From positions 479,740 to 543,739 of the forward strand of contig NZ_JH597770.1 in assembly GCF_000243315.1 (NCBI RefSeq): 64,000 bases of DNA, read 5' to 3'. The translations under genes were made by a program, and so were the position numbers. Source of the stretch: Metallosphaera yellowstonensis MK1 (GTDB lineage: Archaea; Thermoproteota; Thermoprotei_A; Sulfolobales; Sulfolobaceae). Positions 1,624 to 39,840 of the stretch are shown here, piece after piece. The notes below the pieces were generated by a model that had not been told where the DNA came from, searched no databases, and worked only from the letters and a program-made list of their open reading frames with translations. Each line of letters begins with the position of its first letter. The first letter of the stretch is position 1.

Positions 1624-1699
1624 GGGGCCGTCGTCTAGCCTGGACTAAGATGCTAGGCTTGGGCCCTAGTGATCGCGGGTTCAAATCCCGCCGGCCCCA
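1624..1699 (+). tRNA. tRNA-Pro(UGG)
   Basis: A full cloverleaf can be drawn: acceptor GGGGCCG/CGGCCCC, D stem GTCT/AGAT, anticodon stem CTAGG/CCTAG with loop CTTGGGC (anticodon TGG), T stem GCGGG/CCCGC with loop TTCAAAT, and discriminator A. The CCA end is not encoded. No intron is needed to close the arms. Confidence 0.97.
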
Positions 1700-1751
1700 T
1701 TCTCCTTCCTTTGAGTCTCTTTCTGCAGCTGGACTCGGTCTTTAACACTAA

Positions 1752-1814
1752 TAGCAGTTATGCGACTATCCCCTAACTATCGCCCTGTCATCAAGGGAAA
1801 TCCAATAACCGCTA
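1752..1814. repeat. Small inverted-repeat element, copy C (63 bp)
   Basis: The ends TAGCAGTTATGCGACTA and AAATCCAATAACCGCTA are imperfect inverted repeats (about 12 of 17 pairs). An inner hairpin CCCT/AGGG surrounds the centre. It is flanked on both sides by the hexamer CACTAA (1746-1751 and 1815-1820), which looks like a target duplication. It is related along its length to the elements at 1869-1929 and 39777-39840. Confidence 0.7.
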
Positions 1815-1868
1815 CACTAAGTGTTATGCAAGCATGTTCTTCCTGATTTCCTTCCTTAATCTCCCTCA

Positions 1869-1929
1869 CAGCAATCATGGCCTTTGTTAAGTATAGCCTT
1901 AGAGTCAAGGCAAACTGCAACAACCGCTG
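1869..1929. repeat. Small inverted-repeat element, copy B (61 bp)
   Basis: It aligns end to end with the copy at 39777-39840 apart from a 3-base gap. It begins CAGCAATCATGG, ends ACAACCGCTG and carries the core hairpin GCCTT-agagtc-AAGGC, perfectly paired here. The terminal repeats have diverged more than in the other copies. It sits 55 bp after copy C, so the tRNA-Pro/tRNA-Asn spacer holds two copies in tandem. Confidence 0.7.
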
Positions 1930-2001
1930 TCCCTCACTTTGCTCTGGCGCGAATTTTGATGTGAGGGTGTAGGATAGCTTATCCTGTAGCTGAAAAGTTA
2001 G

Positions 2002-2074
2002 CGCCGCGGGGAGGACTCGAACCTCCGACCACCGGGTTAACAGCCCGGCGCTCTGCCAGCTGAGCTACCGCGGC
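2002..2074 (-). tRNA. tRNA-Asn(GUU)
   Basis: Read on the minus strand: acceptor GCCGCGG/CCGCGGC, D stem GCTC/GAGC, anticodon stem CCGGG/CCCGG with loop CTGTTAA (anticodon GTT), T stem GGAGG/CCTCC with loop TTCGAGT, discriminator G. CCA is not encoded. A TATA-like AGTTTTAAAT lies about 34 bases upstream (2104-2113). Confidence 0.97.
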
Positions 2075-2632: not shown

Positions 2633-4324
2633 TTAATCATGGGCATAAACCATCAGGAGTTTACCATCATTCCTATCGACTCTGCAGAATCCGTATCTGA
2701 TAAGTTGTACTACTTCTCCCTCATGTAAAGAACTCATATACCCTTCACCAAAGCCGTCCTCTGTTACAAGCTCTTGATTTGATATTGCCTTTAGCACCGT
2801 AACTGGTACTGCTTCAGACTTTTTCACCCATTGAACTATTGGTGCGTTAAACCTCTTGGCGGTCTCTAGACTCTCATCCAAGAACCTCAGGACATCTCCC
2901 TCCACTCTCACGTTGCATAACTCCAGGAGTCTAAGTACCCTTCCTTCCAATGCGTCTTCTGGGTCCAGAAATATCTCATCCCCTGGAGAGACTCTGATTT
3001 TCCTATACTCCTTCTTGCTAGGCGTTAGTGGGATGTTAGCTTCCATATCCTTTGGGATAAGTAACTTGAAGGACTTCTTATCCCTCACGAACATCAGTCT
3101 CTTCGCTGAGGGATCTAGTAGTTTCCTATTCATTGAGGCTAGATTATCAAAGCTAATGGTAGCGTCAGTCACCTTGAGACCTACTTCTATCATCAGTGAT
3201 CTCACAGTTTCGGGGAGAATACCCCTCCTCCTAAGCCCAGCGAGTGTGGGTAACCTTGGGTCGTCCCTTCCTGAGCCAGTTTCCATCAGACCCCTTATCT
3301 TAGATTTGCTCATCATGAACCCTTCTAGTTTGAGTCTACCGAATTCGAGAATTGTAGGGACCTCCCATCCCATGTAACTGTATATCCACCTCTGTTTGAG
3401 GGAGTTGCTCATGTGCTCCTTGGCTCTCAAGATGTGGGATACGTTGAAGTCGTGATCGTCTACCACCGTGGCGAAGTTGTAGGTCGGCCAGACCCTATAC
3501 TTATCCCCAGTGATAGGATGAGGATTCTTCATAGTATCTATTATCCTTAGCATTACCCAGTCCACTTGTGAGGGATCAGGACTTTTGGGATCGGTCTTTA
3601 TTCTCACCACGGCCTCGCCCTCGTTAAATTCTCCCTGAAGCATCTTCTCCCAAAGGTTAAGGTTTTCCTCAGGGGGCCTTTCCCTATGGGGATAACTCTG
3701 ATTTATCCTCTTCTCTCTCCAACTCCTGAAGTCGTCCTCAGTTCCCAGATCCACGTAGGCGTATCCCTTTTCCAGTAAAACCTTGGCGATCTCGTAGTAT
3801 CTCTCCATTCTGCTCGAGGCGGAGAACTCCATGTCCCAATTTATCCCTAACCACTTAAGATCCTCCCTTATCCATTGATAAGCCTCCAGCAGTGGTTTCT
3901 TTACCTTAGGATCTGTGTCGTCGAAGCGAAGTATGAACTTACCTCCATACATCTTAGCGTATTCGTGGGAAAGGACTGCAGCCCTGGCGTTCCCTAAATG
4001 GATAGGTCCGTCTGGATTAGGAGCGAATCTAGTTGTTACTGTTCCCTTAACGTTCGGTAAGGGGGGGAGGATCTTCTTTTTCTCTTCTTTTTTCTCCTCC
4101 ATGACTTCAGGATATCTTTGAATTTCCCTCATCTGATCTTCAAGGGGCATGGAATTTACCCTTTCCACTACTTTCTTGGCCATTTCAACGACTTCCTTAA
4201 CTTTAGCCTTGAGATCAGGCCTCTCAGCCAGAACTTTACTCACCACTGGACCCACTTGAGCTCTGCCTTCATGTTTCACCGCATTAGCTAATGCGTGTTT
4301 ATAGATTATCTCCTCTAATTCCAA
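2633..4324 (-). CDS. gltX: Glutamyl-tRNA synthetase, archaeal type
   Basis: A class I aminoacyl-tRNA synthetase of 563 residues that charges tRNA-Glu. Archaeal enzymes of this group usually also mischarge tRNA-Gln for the GatDE amidotransferase (family knowledge; the discrimination is not readable here). An N-terminal helical region of about 85 residues, ending in a Glu/Lys-rich linker, precedes the catalytic core, which begins [15 protein letters not shown] (HIGH motif at about 108-111). The KMSKS equivalent is MMSKSKI. The GlnRS-like beta-barrel C-terminal half fits the archaeal/eukaryal type. The start is TTG, three bases after the stop of the phosphatase gene, so translation is probably coupled. 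Confidence 0.95.
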
Positions 4325-36971: not shown

Positions 36972-37161
36972 AGGGATGAGGTTGCCAAAGCATCATCAGC
37001 TTATTACTTCGGCCTTTCATTGAGGAAGGTTGAGGCAATTTTTCACGTACTGAAGAGTGTCGTTCAGTGCTATTAGAGGAGGTTGGATAAGTTTACTTCT
37101 CCCCCTTCTTTAAGCGATGTTTACGTTGTAGACGAGACGGGGATTAGGCGTTAATAACTTA
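36972..37161 (+). pseudogene. IS6-like DDE transposase fragment
   Basis: The plus-strand reading DEVAKASSAYYFGLSLRKVEAIF, then a stop, then DVYVVDETGIRR and a stop, resembles the N-terminal helix-turn-helix and first catalytic Asp (VDET) of IS6-type archaeal transposases. In-frame stops at about 37072 and 37155 and the abrupt end at 37161, where the next element begins, show it is a remnant. Confidence 0.5.
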
Positions 37162-38260
37162 CAGTAGTTATGGGACTTTAACGTAACTTAAAGATTTTCA
37201 TCAGCCCCGGCGGTCAGCCTAAATAACGTTCAACGAACCTGAGGAACGCCTCCACGCTCCTCAGGTTCGGCTCCCCCACCAGCTCCCCGACGACGTTGTT
37301 GATGGTGAAGATCGTGAGGTAACCCTGAAGCCTCTCCCTCCTCCAGAATGAGGAGTCTCAGGGCCTTGACGTCCCTTGGAGGTACTCGATCTCCGGCCAG
37401 GCAGGCCTCCTCCCCGCTGAGCGAGAGGTCGGTCGTGTAGAGGTACCTGGCCTGTGTCCCGGAGTCGTGTTCCTGCGAGCAACTTCACCGTGACCACTCG
37501 GCCTCCCAGGGTCAGGTCGGCGTAGTAGACTCCAGGGGGTATCCCACTGGGAGGTGCCCCTCCTCGAGGGTTCCCTGGGCAGACCCTGAGTTCGGTTGGA
37601 CTTGAGCTCAGACACCACGTTGTCCGTCACGAGCCTCTCGGACAGTACGGGAGTCGAAGACGACCCTGGCTACCGGAAGCGCTCCTTGAGCACGTCCAAC
37701 ATCTCGCCACCTCGATCTTGGTCTTGAACTCGGTGACCCTCACAAATCCCACATCTTCCTCACGGCGTAGGGGAACCGTGAACGTCCTGCCCTAGGTCCA
37801 CTACGGCGACCGTGAGGAGCTCGGCCCTCTCGAACCTCCCGTGGGTGTGGCAGCAGGTCCAGTAGTTCTCGGGGGCTCACGTCCTCCCAGAGCGTCGTGG
37901 TCCACGGTGTCGTCCACGATGACGACCTGACCCTTCACCGGCCTGACAGGACCTCCACGCGTCGTCGAGTTCTCCCAACGCCTCCAGCAGGTTTGCGTAG
38001 TCCAACCCGAACGTCTCGGCAGCGTCATTCACGCTGGCCCTCCCACCTACCAGGACCATGAGGATCAGGCCAGTTAACCTTCCTGCTCCTCCCGTTCCCC
38101 CTCACCACTCCCAGCCTGTTGACCTCCCTGACCAGTATCTCCCTAGCGAACTCGATCGGTCCCTTTCCGCACCTTTTCAGCGGGACGACGTCGAAAAATA
38201 AAAACTTCTCGCTAATACCGACTTCTTCGTATTACCTCCCTAAGATTCCCATAACTGCTG
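37162..38260 (-). mobile_element. Decayed ~1.1 kb insertion sequence with terminal inverted repeats
   Basis: The right end reads CAGCAGTTATGGGA on the minus strand (38247-38260) and the left end CAGTAGTTATGGGA on the plus strand (37162-37175), 13 of 14 bases matching in inverted orientation. Between them lies a frameshifted DDE transposase on the minus strand. No target duplication is evident. The same end sequence bounds the small element at 39777-39840, so this looks like the parent IS of that family. Confidence 0.65.
37240..38190 (-). pseudogene. Frameshifted DDE transposase (IS4/ISH3-like)
   Basis: Overlapping fragments in different frames rebuild a transposase: GRASVNDAAETFGLDYANLLEALGEL (near 37940-38040), GQVVIVDDTVDHDALGGR with a catalytic Asp pair (near 37895-37930), a middle part around 37700-37360, and FTINNVVGELVGEPNLRSVEAFLRF near the C-terminus (37240-37310). 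The high G+C and the many one-base slips contrast with the neighbouring genes. It resembles, from memory only, Sulfolobus ISC1217-type transposases. Not functional. Confidence 0.65.
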
Positions 38261-38387
38261 AATATTAATTACTGAAAGATTCCTGTTATACGATATCGTT
38301 TTATTGAAATAAATTGAACGAATCAACAAAGCATAATTTATGGGAATGCTTTAAAGGTAATGCCTGAGCTAGTATGCCTGGTGTGAT

Positions 38388-38885
38388 GTGAGAATTACTT
38401 TAATAATAGGGTTGTTTCTTATTGTTACCGGGATAATAGCCTACCTAACAATCCCTCTTTATTTCCCTGGGTATTCCACCGTGAGTTCCCAGTTGAAGCA
38501 GAACCACAAGGTCCTCACATTGAGGCCTGAAGAATCTCGGATAATTACGCAGTTAAGCATCGGAAACAATTCTTCAGCTGTAATAGTAGTCACCAATGAG
38601 TCTAGAGTGAACGTATCTATAGAAGGAGCGTCTGGGCATACTTTTCAGGAACAGGGAGAGGCCTCAGTCAGCCTACCCGCAGGCTATTACAACGTTTCCC
38701 TTATTAATACGACCAACTCAACACAGACTGTCTCACTGACCTATGGGGTGTTCAATGCTCAATTTATCTCCAATTTCTACTATAATCTACAAGTTCTCGA
38801 GACGATATTAGAGTTCATTATAGTTATTGGAATAGGGATCGTAGGTTGGCAGATATTGACTAAAATTTTCTCAAGGAGGAAATGA
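38388..38885 (+). CDS. Small membrane protein with extracytoplasmic domain
   Basis: A 165-residue protein with an N-terminal membrane segment (about 4-24), a beta-rich outer domain with several Asn-x-Ser/Thr sites (NNSS, NES, NVS, NTT, NST), and a C-terminal membrane helix (about 140-158) followed by SRRK. Start is GTG at 38388. It overlaps the convergent binding-protein gene by 26 bases. No family recognised; a surface-associated role is suggested by topology only. Confidence 0.7.
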   Translation: MRITLIIGLFLIVTGIIAYLTIPLYFPGYSTVSSQLKQNHKVLTLRPEESRIITQLSIGNNSSAVIVVTNESRVNVSIEGASGHTFQEQGEASVSLPAGYYNVSLINTTNSTQTVSLTYGVFNAQFISNFYYNLQVLETILEFIIVIGIGIVGWQILTKIFSRRK

Positions 38886-39678
38886 CCCCTCTCAGCCAGG
38901 GAATCGCCTCAGTCACGAAACTTGGACCTTGATGGGCTATGAAATCTCCCCTCGTGAGAACGATAGGTGTGTCTAGTAGTTGTTCTAGACCCCTGTCAAT
39001 AAGAGATCTCTTAAACCTCTCCAGCTCTTCTGCGGAGTTTCTCTTGGGTTCGTATATGATTAAATCGGGCCTGATACCCCTAAGAACGGAGGGGTCAGGA
39101 CTAACATAGGCATCTGCCATAAAATCTAGTGCGTTCTTAGCTCCCACAAGCCACAGTGCGTCACTTACGTGAGTAGGATATCCAGGGGATATAGGACCGC
39201 CTAAATCGAACTCTACGTAAACCACAGGTCTTTCTGCTGGTGCCTCAAAATTTAGTCTCCTGAGCAGAGAAGAATATAATTCCCTGGCCTCTTCTTGTCT
39301 CCCTATCAAGTTGCCAATTAGGAGAACGTTATTGAGTATTACTGATACCGAGGTTGCCACCCTCATGGGATAGACTGGATAACCTTCGTTTACCAGTTCT
39401 CTCGTAAGAGGTTTTTGTGCCCCCAGCGTCGTTACTAAGAGGTCTGGGCTCAGCTCCCTTAGTTCTTTTTTCACTACGTGGGTGTAGCTACCTATCTTCT
39501 TTTTCTTTCTCGCTTCTTCTGGTCTATAACTGAACGCGTCTGTCGCTATAATACTGTCTCCTCCCCCTAGCATGAATATGGTTTCTGTGGATGCAGGATC
39601 TAGACTGACTATCTTTCTGGGAGGATACTCTATCTCAATAAATGCGTCCAGAACATCGTTATAGAACCTCTTTTTCAT
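38860..39678 (-). CDS. BtuF-like periplasmic-binding-fold protein without signal peptide
   Basis: A 272-residue protein of the FhuD/BtuF helical-backbone type: PRKIVSLDPASTETIFMLGGGDSIIATDAFSYRP, LLVTTLGAQKPL and RPDLIIYEP. Such proteins bind cobalamin or siderophores outside the cell for ABC import. Here the N-terminus (MKKRFYNDVLDAFIE) has no signal or lipobox and no permease/ATPase genes are adjacent, so it may act in the cytosol or be secreted otherwise. The nearby cbiG gene suggests a corrinoid connection. Confidence 0.75.
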   Translation of the reverse strand: MKKRFYNDVLDAFIEIEYPPRKIVSLDPASTETIFMLGGGDSIIATDAFSYRPEEARKKKKIGSYTHVVKKELRELSPDLLVTTLGAQKPLTRELVNEGYPVYPMRVATSVSVILNNVLLIGNLIGRQEEARELYSSLLRRLNFEAPAERPVVYVEFDLGGPISPGYPTHVSDALWLVGAKNALDFMADAYVSPDPSVLRGIRPDLIIYEPKRNSAEELERFKRSLIDRGLEQLLDTPIVLTRGDFIAHQGPSFVTEAIPWLRGVISSLRKF

Positions 39679-39776
39679 GACCAGAGAGACGAGTTAATAC
39701 TATAAAATCTCTCTTCTTCATTTTCTGTGCAATGTAGGTGATAAAGAGAACGACAACTCCTTCCCCTTCAGGGCTA

Positions 39777-39840
39777 CAGCAGTTATGGGATTTCTCGTTA
39801 GGTGTAGCCTTGAAGTCGAGGCGAAATCTAATAACTGCTG
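39777..39840. repeat. Small inverted-repeat element, copy A (64 bp)
   Basis: CAGCAGTTATGGGATTT (39777-39793) and AAATCTAATAACTGCTG (39824-39840) are inverted repeats matching at 15 of 17 positions. The core GCCTT-gaagtc-GAGGC forms an inner hairpin. CTA occurs on both sides (39774-39776 and 39841-39843), a possible 3-bp duplication. Its first 14 bases equal the right end of the IS at 37162-38260. It lies between two genes. Confidence 0.75.

Follow-up and report, generated by a model that had tools for sequence, protein, structure and literature searches.

The window analysed here is a 64-kb stretch of the Metallosphaera yellowstonensis MK1 genome (contig C19, positions 479740–543739, in a 2.82-Mb assembly of 21 contigs; window G+C content 44.7%). 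It contains a decayed ISC1217-type IS and three copies of a short, gene-free element whose two imperfect inverted ends, each about 20 bp long, enclose a short spacer (Table 1). The left end of the 64-bp copy, CAGCAGTTATGGGA, is identical at 14 of 14 positions to the right end of the IS and at 13 of 14 to its left end. The right end, read inwards, is CAGCAGTTATTAGA, which agrees at 12 of 14. With up to three mismatches allowed, the window holds 12 matches where 4.75 are expected, a number reached in none of 100 shuffles. A preliminary description had read these elements as a MITE-like family that owed its mobility to a parent transposase now decayed. Its coordinates and letters for the 64-bp element and both IS ends were correct on re-check, and its two further relatives are real, each flanked by a target duplication.

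Table 1 MITE copies and IS features in the window.
Feature	Position	Strand	Remarks
Older MITE copy, 63 bp, grouped with subfamily C	1752..1814	+	Target duplication CACTAA (6 bp)
Older MITE copy, 61 bp, A-like	1869..1929	+	Target duplication TCCCTCA (7 bp)
IS left terminal inverted repeat	37162..37175	+	CAGTAGTTATGGGA
Decayed ISC1217-type IS, 1099 bp	37162..38260	-	Fragmented transposase; flanks show no duplication
IS right terminal inverted repeat	38247..38260	-	CAGCAGTTATGGGA
64-bp MITE copy, subfamily A	39777..39840	+	Flanking repeat is the 3-bp CTA only

The surroundings of these features show two further peculiarities. The two old MITE copies lie between tRNA genes (window 1624–2074), and, compared with congeners (e.g. 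G002 and G005), the tRNA at 1624–1699 is on the opposite side of the tRNA at 2002–2074, with the relative orientation of the two reversed. This local rearrangement may have involved the MITEs, though a link is not demonstrable. Immediately left of the IS, at 37110–37150, a short frame reads DVYVVDETGIRR by eye. It looks like the remnant of another transposase, and the IS seems to have inserted into or next to it.

Copy number, subfamilies and insertion sites

M. yellowstonensis MK1 has been reported to carry 283 transposon sequences, the maximum in its genus (PMC7325606). Across the genome, the terminal 14-mer has 388 matches at up to one mismatch, compared to none for a reversed control pattern, and a strict full-length pattern finds 40 copies. 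A profile started from four sequences and then iterated was used to scan contigs C17 and C19 (1.377 Mb, 49% of the assembly), where it recovers 104 near-full-length copies; extrapolation from these two contigs suggests about 200 in the whole genome. The consensus thus occurs in far more than the three places recognised in the window. Copies are 61–66 bp long, with 63 or 64 bp in 94 of the 104, and their two ends agree at 15–20 of 24 positions, in line with the definition of a MITE as an element below 500 bp with terminal inverted repeats and no ORF.

At least four subfamilies (A, B, C, and D) and further variants can be distinguished. Subfamily A is the youngest, with a median divergence of 3% from its consensus and several copies that are identical at different sites; the 64-bp element of the window has identical copies at C10:444133, C10:153971, and C10:54792. 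Subfamilies B, C, and D diverge from their consensus by about 8%, and D carries TAGTAGTTAT at both ends. Overall, GGGA, the form found in the resident IS, predominates at left ends (71/104), and TAGA or CAGA at right ends (85/104).

Exact flanking repeats of 6–9 bp were found at 25 of the 49 C19 copies with boundaries left unadjusted, compared to 0.8% of random 64-bp intervals. Over C17 and C19 together, with a boundary shift of up to two bases permitted and the end motif taking priority, 52 of the 104 copies have target duplications of 6–9 bp, and 30 of those are 7 bp. The 7-bp duplications begin with T in 26 cases and end with A in 23, giving the form T-N5-A. One copy (C17:28931–28993) interrupts another IS copy, with a GTTTAT duplication, and the uninterrupted sequence is present in many other IS copies; these undisturbed siblings supply an in-genome "empty" site. 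The preliminary description had proposed looking for such sites in related strains, and at that level two recognised same-species MAG contigs showed no insertion polymorphism. Midpoints of 98 of the 104 copies fall outside crude ORF calls, compared to about 26% of random points, although this excess may be inflated, and the low in-ORF fraction partly circular, because a 71-bp insertion breaks the frame. Several MITE flanks on C17 and C19 (e.g. C17:445520–445625 and C17:548593–548682) themselves have dozens of other matches of about 90–115 bp at 75–97% identity, and the genome therefore carries other short repeat families.

A repeat of this kind could in principle be a structured small RNA, or a hairpin with a regulatory role (a terminator or processing site), maintained by selection, with its likeness to IS ends incidental. 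Single copies do form stable folds (z about −5 to −7), and they are intergenic. However, a strong single-copy fold follows from the inverted ends themselves, and RNAalifold across the subfamilies gives no consensus pair. These positions match no Rfam family, target duplications flank half of the copies, and the gene-pair context (convergent, tandem, or divergent) is not clearly off chance. The family was also not found in five congeneric genomes among the best 150 scored candidates per genome, so the conservation across species that the preliminary description had named as the mark of a functional RNA was not seen in them. Neither the conserved structure nor the presence across related species of a functional small RNA family was found here. 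With copies almost wholly intergenic, without a conserved fold, and undetected in the five congeners, we regard a functional RNA as extremely improbable.

The resident ISC1217-type IS and its transposase

The IS in the window has about 40 or more nucleotide-level relatives in the genome, most of them broken; those that are near full length are 84–92% identical. The window fragment matches PF04693 (ISC1217) weakly, at 15.5 bits. Elsewhere in the genome are seven stop-free transposase ORFs, which cover positions 3–327 or 4–327 of the 327 in PF04693 at 347–362 bits. With 362 bits compared to a curated cut-off of 20.2, the intact copies belong to the ISC1217 type. All seven ORFs lie inside elements with perfect ends, CAGCAGTTATGGGA on both sides, and the intact form of the IS is 1214–1220 bp. 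While the window copy of the transposase has decayed, the genome as a whole therefore retains it, and the earlier suggestion of a decayed parent transposase is not supported.

Invariant over ten relatives are D96/D97, D193, and a W290-(2)-R293-(3)-E297-(6)-K304 block. The residues D96/D97, D193, and E297 are predicted to be the catalytic DDE residues, and together with the W-R-E-K block this pattern is compatible with a DDE transposase from the IS4/IS701 neighbourhood; the NCBIfam IS701 and IS4 models score below their cut-offs. In its near-complete match to PF04693 (DDE_Tnp_2) and in its DDE-type and W-R-E-K residues, the resident IS resembles ISC1217. Its transposase shares 35% amino acid identity with the top-scoring PF04693 element of genome G034, which is probably ISC1217 itself, and 60–63% with other Sulfolobaceae members. 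Target duplications were found at 11 of the 52 full-length IS copies, eight of 7 bp and three of 6 bp, and thus peak at 7 bp as for the MITE.

The reading of the repeats as a MITE family with IS ends is borne out by the copy number, the ends held in common with an autonomous element of the same genome (14/14 at one end and 12/14 at the other), the target duplications, and the in-genome empty sites, all of which can be seen in the genome sequence, as can the intact transposase ORFs. We conclude that the repeat is very probably a non-autonomous MITE of 61–66 bp, moved in trans by the DDE-type transposase of intact ISC1217-type IS copies and inserted between genes at T-N5-A sites. In this mechanism, intact resident copies elsewhere in the genome would make the transposase, which would bind the common terminal sequence CAGCAGTTATGGGA and probably also the CAGCAGTTATTAGA variant at the other MITE end. 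It would then move the MITE in trans to an intergenic T-N5-A site, and the insertion would leave a direct repeat, mostly of 7 bp. Action of the ISC1217-type transposase on the MITE is thus likely but, because one MITE end (TAGA/CAGA) differs from both IS ends (GGGA), efficient use of the MITE by the resident enzyme is not certain.

The transposase also appears to be still active. A family that is now a relic, its transposase dead and its copies no longer moving, would agree with the broken state of the majority of IS copies. The seven intact ORFs argue against this, as do the slight divergence of subfamily A and its identical copies at different sites, and we consider a relic unlikely.

Origin of the MITE ends and interior

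A simple origin for the MITE would be the loss of internal sequence from the resident 1.2-kb IS, which would account for the 14-bp end in common and for the 7-bp duplications of both. Beyond the ends, however, nothing convincing is shared between the MITE and the resident IS, and the right-hand end is TAGA rather than GGGA. On C19, no resident-IS derivative of intermediate length (above 64 bp and below 1.2 kb) stood out, although a few end pairs of 90–600 bp occur there. The MITE interior TTTTCCCTTAGGTA also better matches the corresponding end of related Sulfolobaceae ISs from genomes G035 and G002 (shuffle p 0.001) than that of the resident IS (p 0.01). The ends of these related ISs are CAGCAGTTATCATATTTTCCCTTAGTAGTACCG (G035) and TAGCAGTTGTTCTATTTTCCCTCGGTAATACG (G002). 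For subfamily B, the left interior likewise matches them at p 0.001, the minimum attainable with 1000 shuffles, and the right interior matches less well. These interior comparisons were picked after inspection and are no more than suggestive. An internal deletion of the resident IS is thus a decidedly unlikely origin, and the resident IS is a doubtful direct parent: all that the two have in common is the terminal 14 bp on one side and 12 of 14 on the other, and the MITE interior better fits ISC1217-type ISs of other genomes.

Diverged relatives of the MITE are present in another genus (g6), with 15 matches in genome G031 (best E-value 2.5e-11) and others in G032 and G033. Since its interior better matches other Sulfolobaceae ISC1217-type ISs and it has diverged relatives in another genus, the MITE is probably older than the present resident IS. 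We infer that it arose from the termini of an earlier ISC1217-type IS and not from the window copy. A more speculative and rather doubtful extension is that a 60–64-bp MITE lineage has far outlasted any one partner IS across Sulfolobaceae genera, repeatedly adopting the terminal sequence of the resident ISC1217-type transposase at one end. This proposal draws on the GGGA left end, like that of the present IS, the older TAGA/CAGA right end, the TAGTAGTTAT at both ends of subfamily D, and the relatives in g6.

The lone match in a scan of named genomes was in a MAG labelled Euryarchaeota; its contig is 99.8% identical to this genome with the copy at the same site, and it therefore represents a mis-binned contig of the same species rather than another host. 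In all, this MAG, which is placed in another Sulfolobaceae genus, contains mis-binned contigs 99.1–99.8% identical to this genome, L091 (JAFMDM010000144.1) and L241 (G038:C32). On contig G038:C49 (L257), which lacks any long match to C17 or C19, a 3.9-kb span carries three diverged relatives of the MITE (236–294, 834–895, and 3690–3748); the bin is mixed, so their host is uncertain. Spread of the MITE by viruses or plasmids was also considered and rejected, since searches of viral contigs and of phage and plasmid sequences gave no match.

Relation to known MITEs

Short, gene-free inverted-repeat elements mobilised in trans by IS transposases are known from other Sulfolobaceae, namely SM1–SM4 of Sulfolobus solfataricus and SMN1 and SM3A of S. 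islandicus. Copies per family in S. solfataricus range from 25 (SM2) to 44 (SM3) (PMC10969869). SMN1 (320 bp) depends on ISC1733 and SM3A (164 bp) on ISC1058 (PMC3718332). The Metallosphaera element differs in its length of 64 bp, its estimated 200 copies, and its ISC1217-type partner, and may be related to SM1, SM2, or SM4. Archaeal MITEs found de novo resemble their partner IS in the terminal repeats only (usually less than 20 nt), and the elements listed are 89–570 bp with 2–34 copies (Kamoun et al. 2013, PMC3852290). The present MITE resembles these in having its IS similarity in the ends, and differs in being shorter and more numerous. Our literature search returned no paper on Metallosphaera MITEs, none with both ISC1217 and MITE, and no description of the present family.

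These repeats form a genuine MITE family whose ISC1217-type partner is intact; the family is new, its kind well known. Ordinary in kind, it is unusual in being very short, numerous, and nearly uniform in length, and it combines subfamilies of several ages with an intact partner in an archaeon. These properties make it a usable case for asking how little DNA suffices for a DDE transposase and how MITEs persist beyond the elements that gave rise to them.
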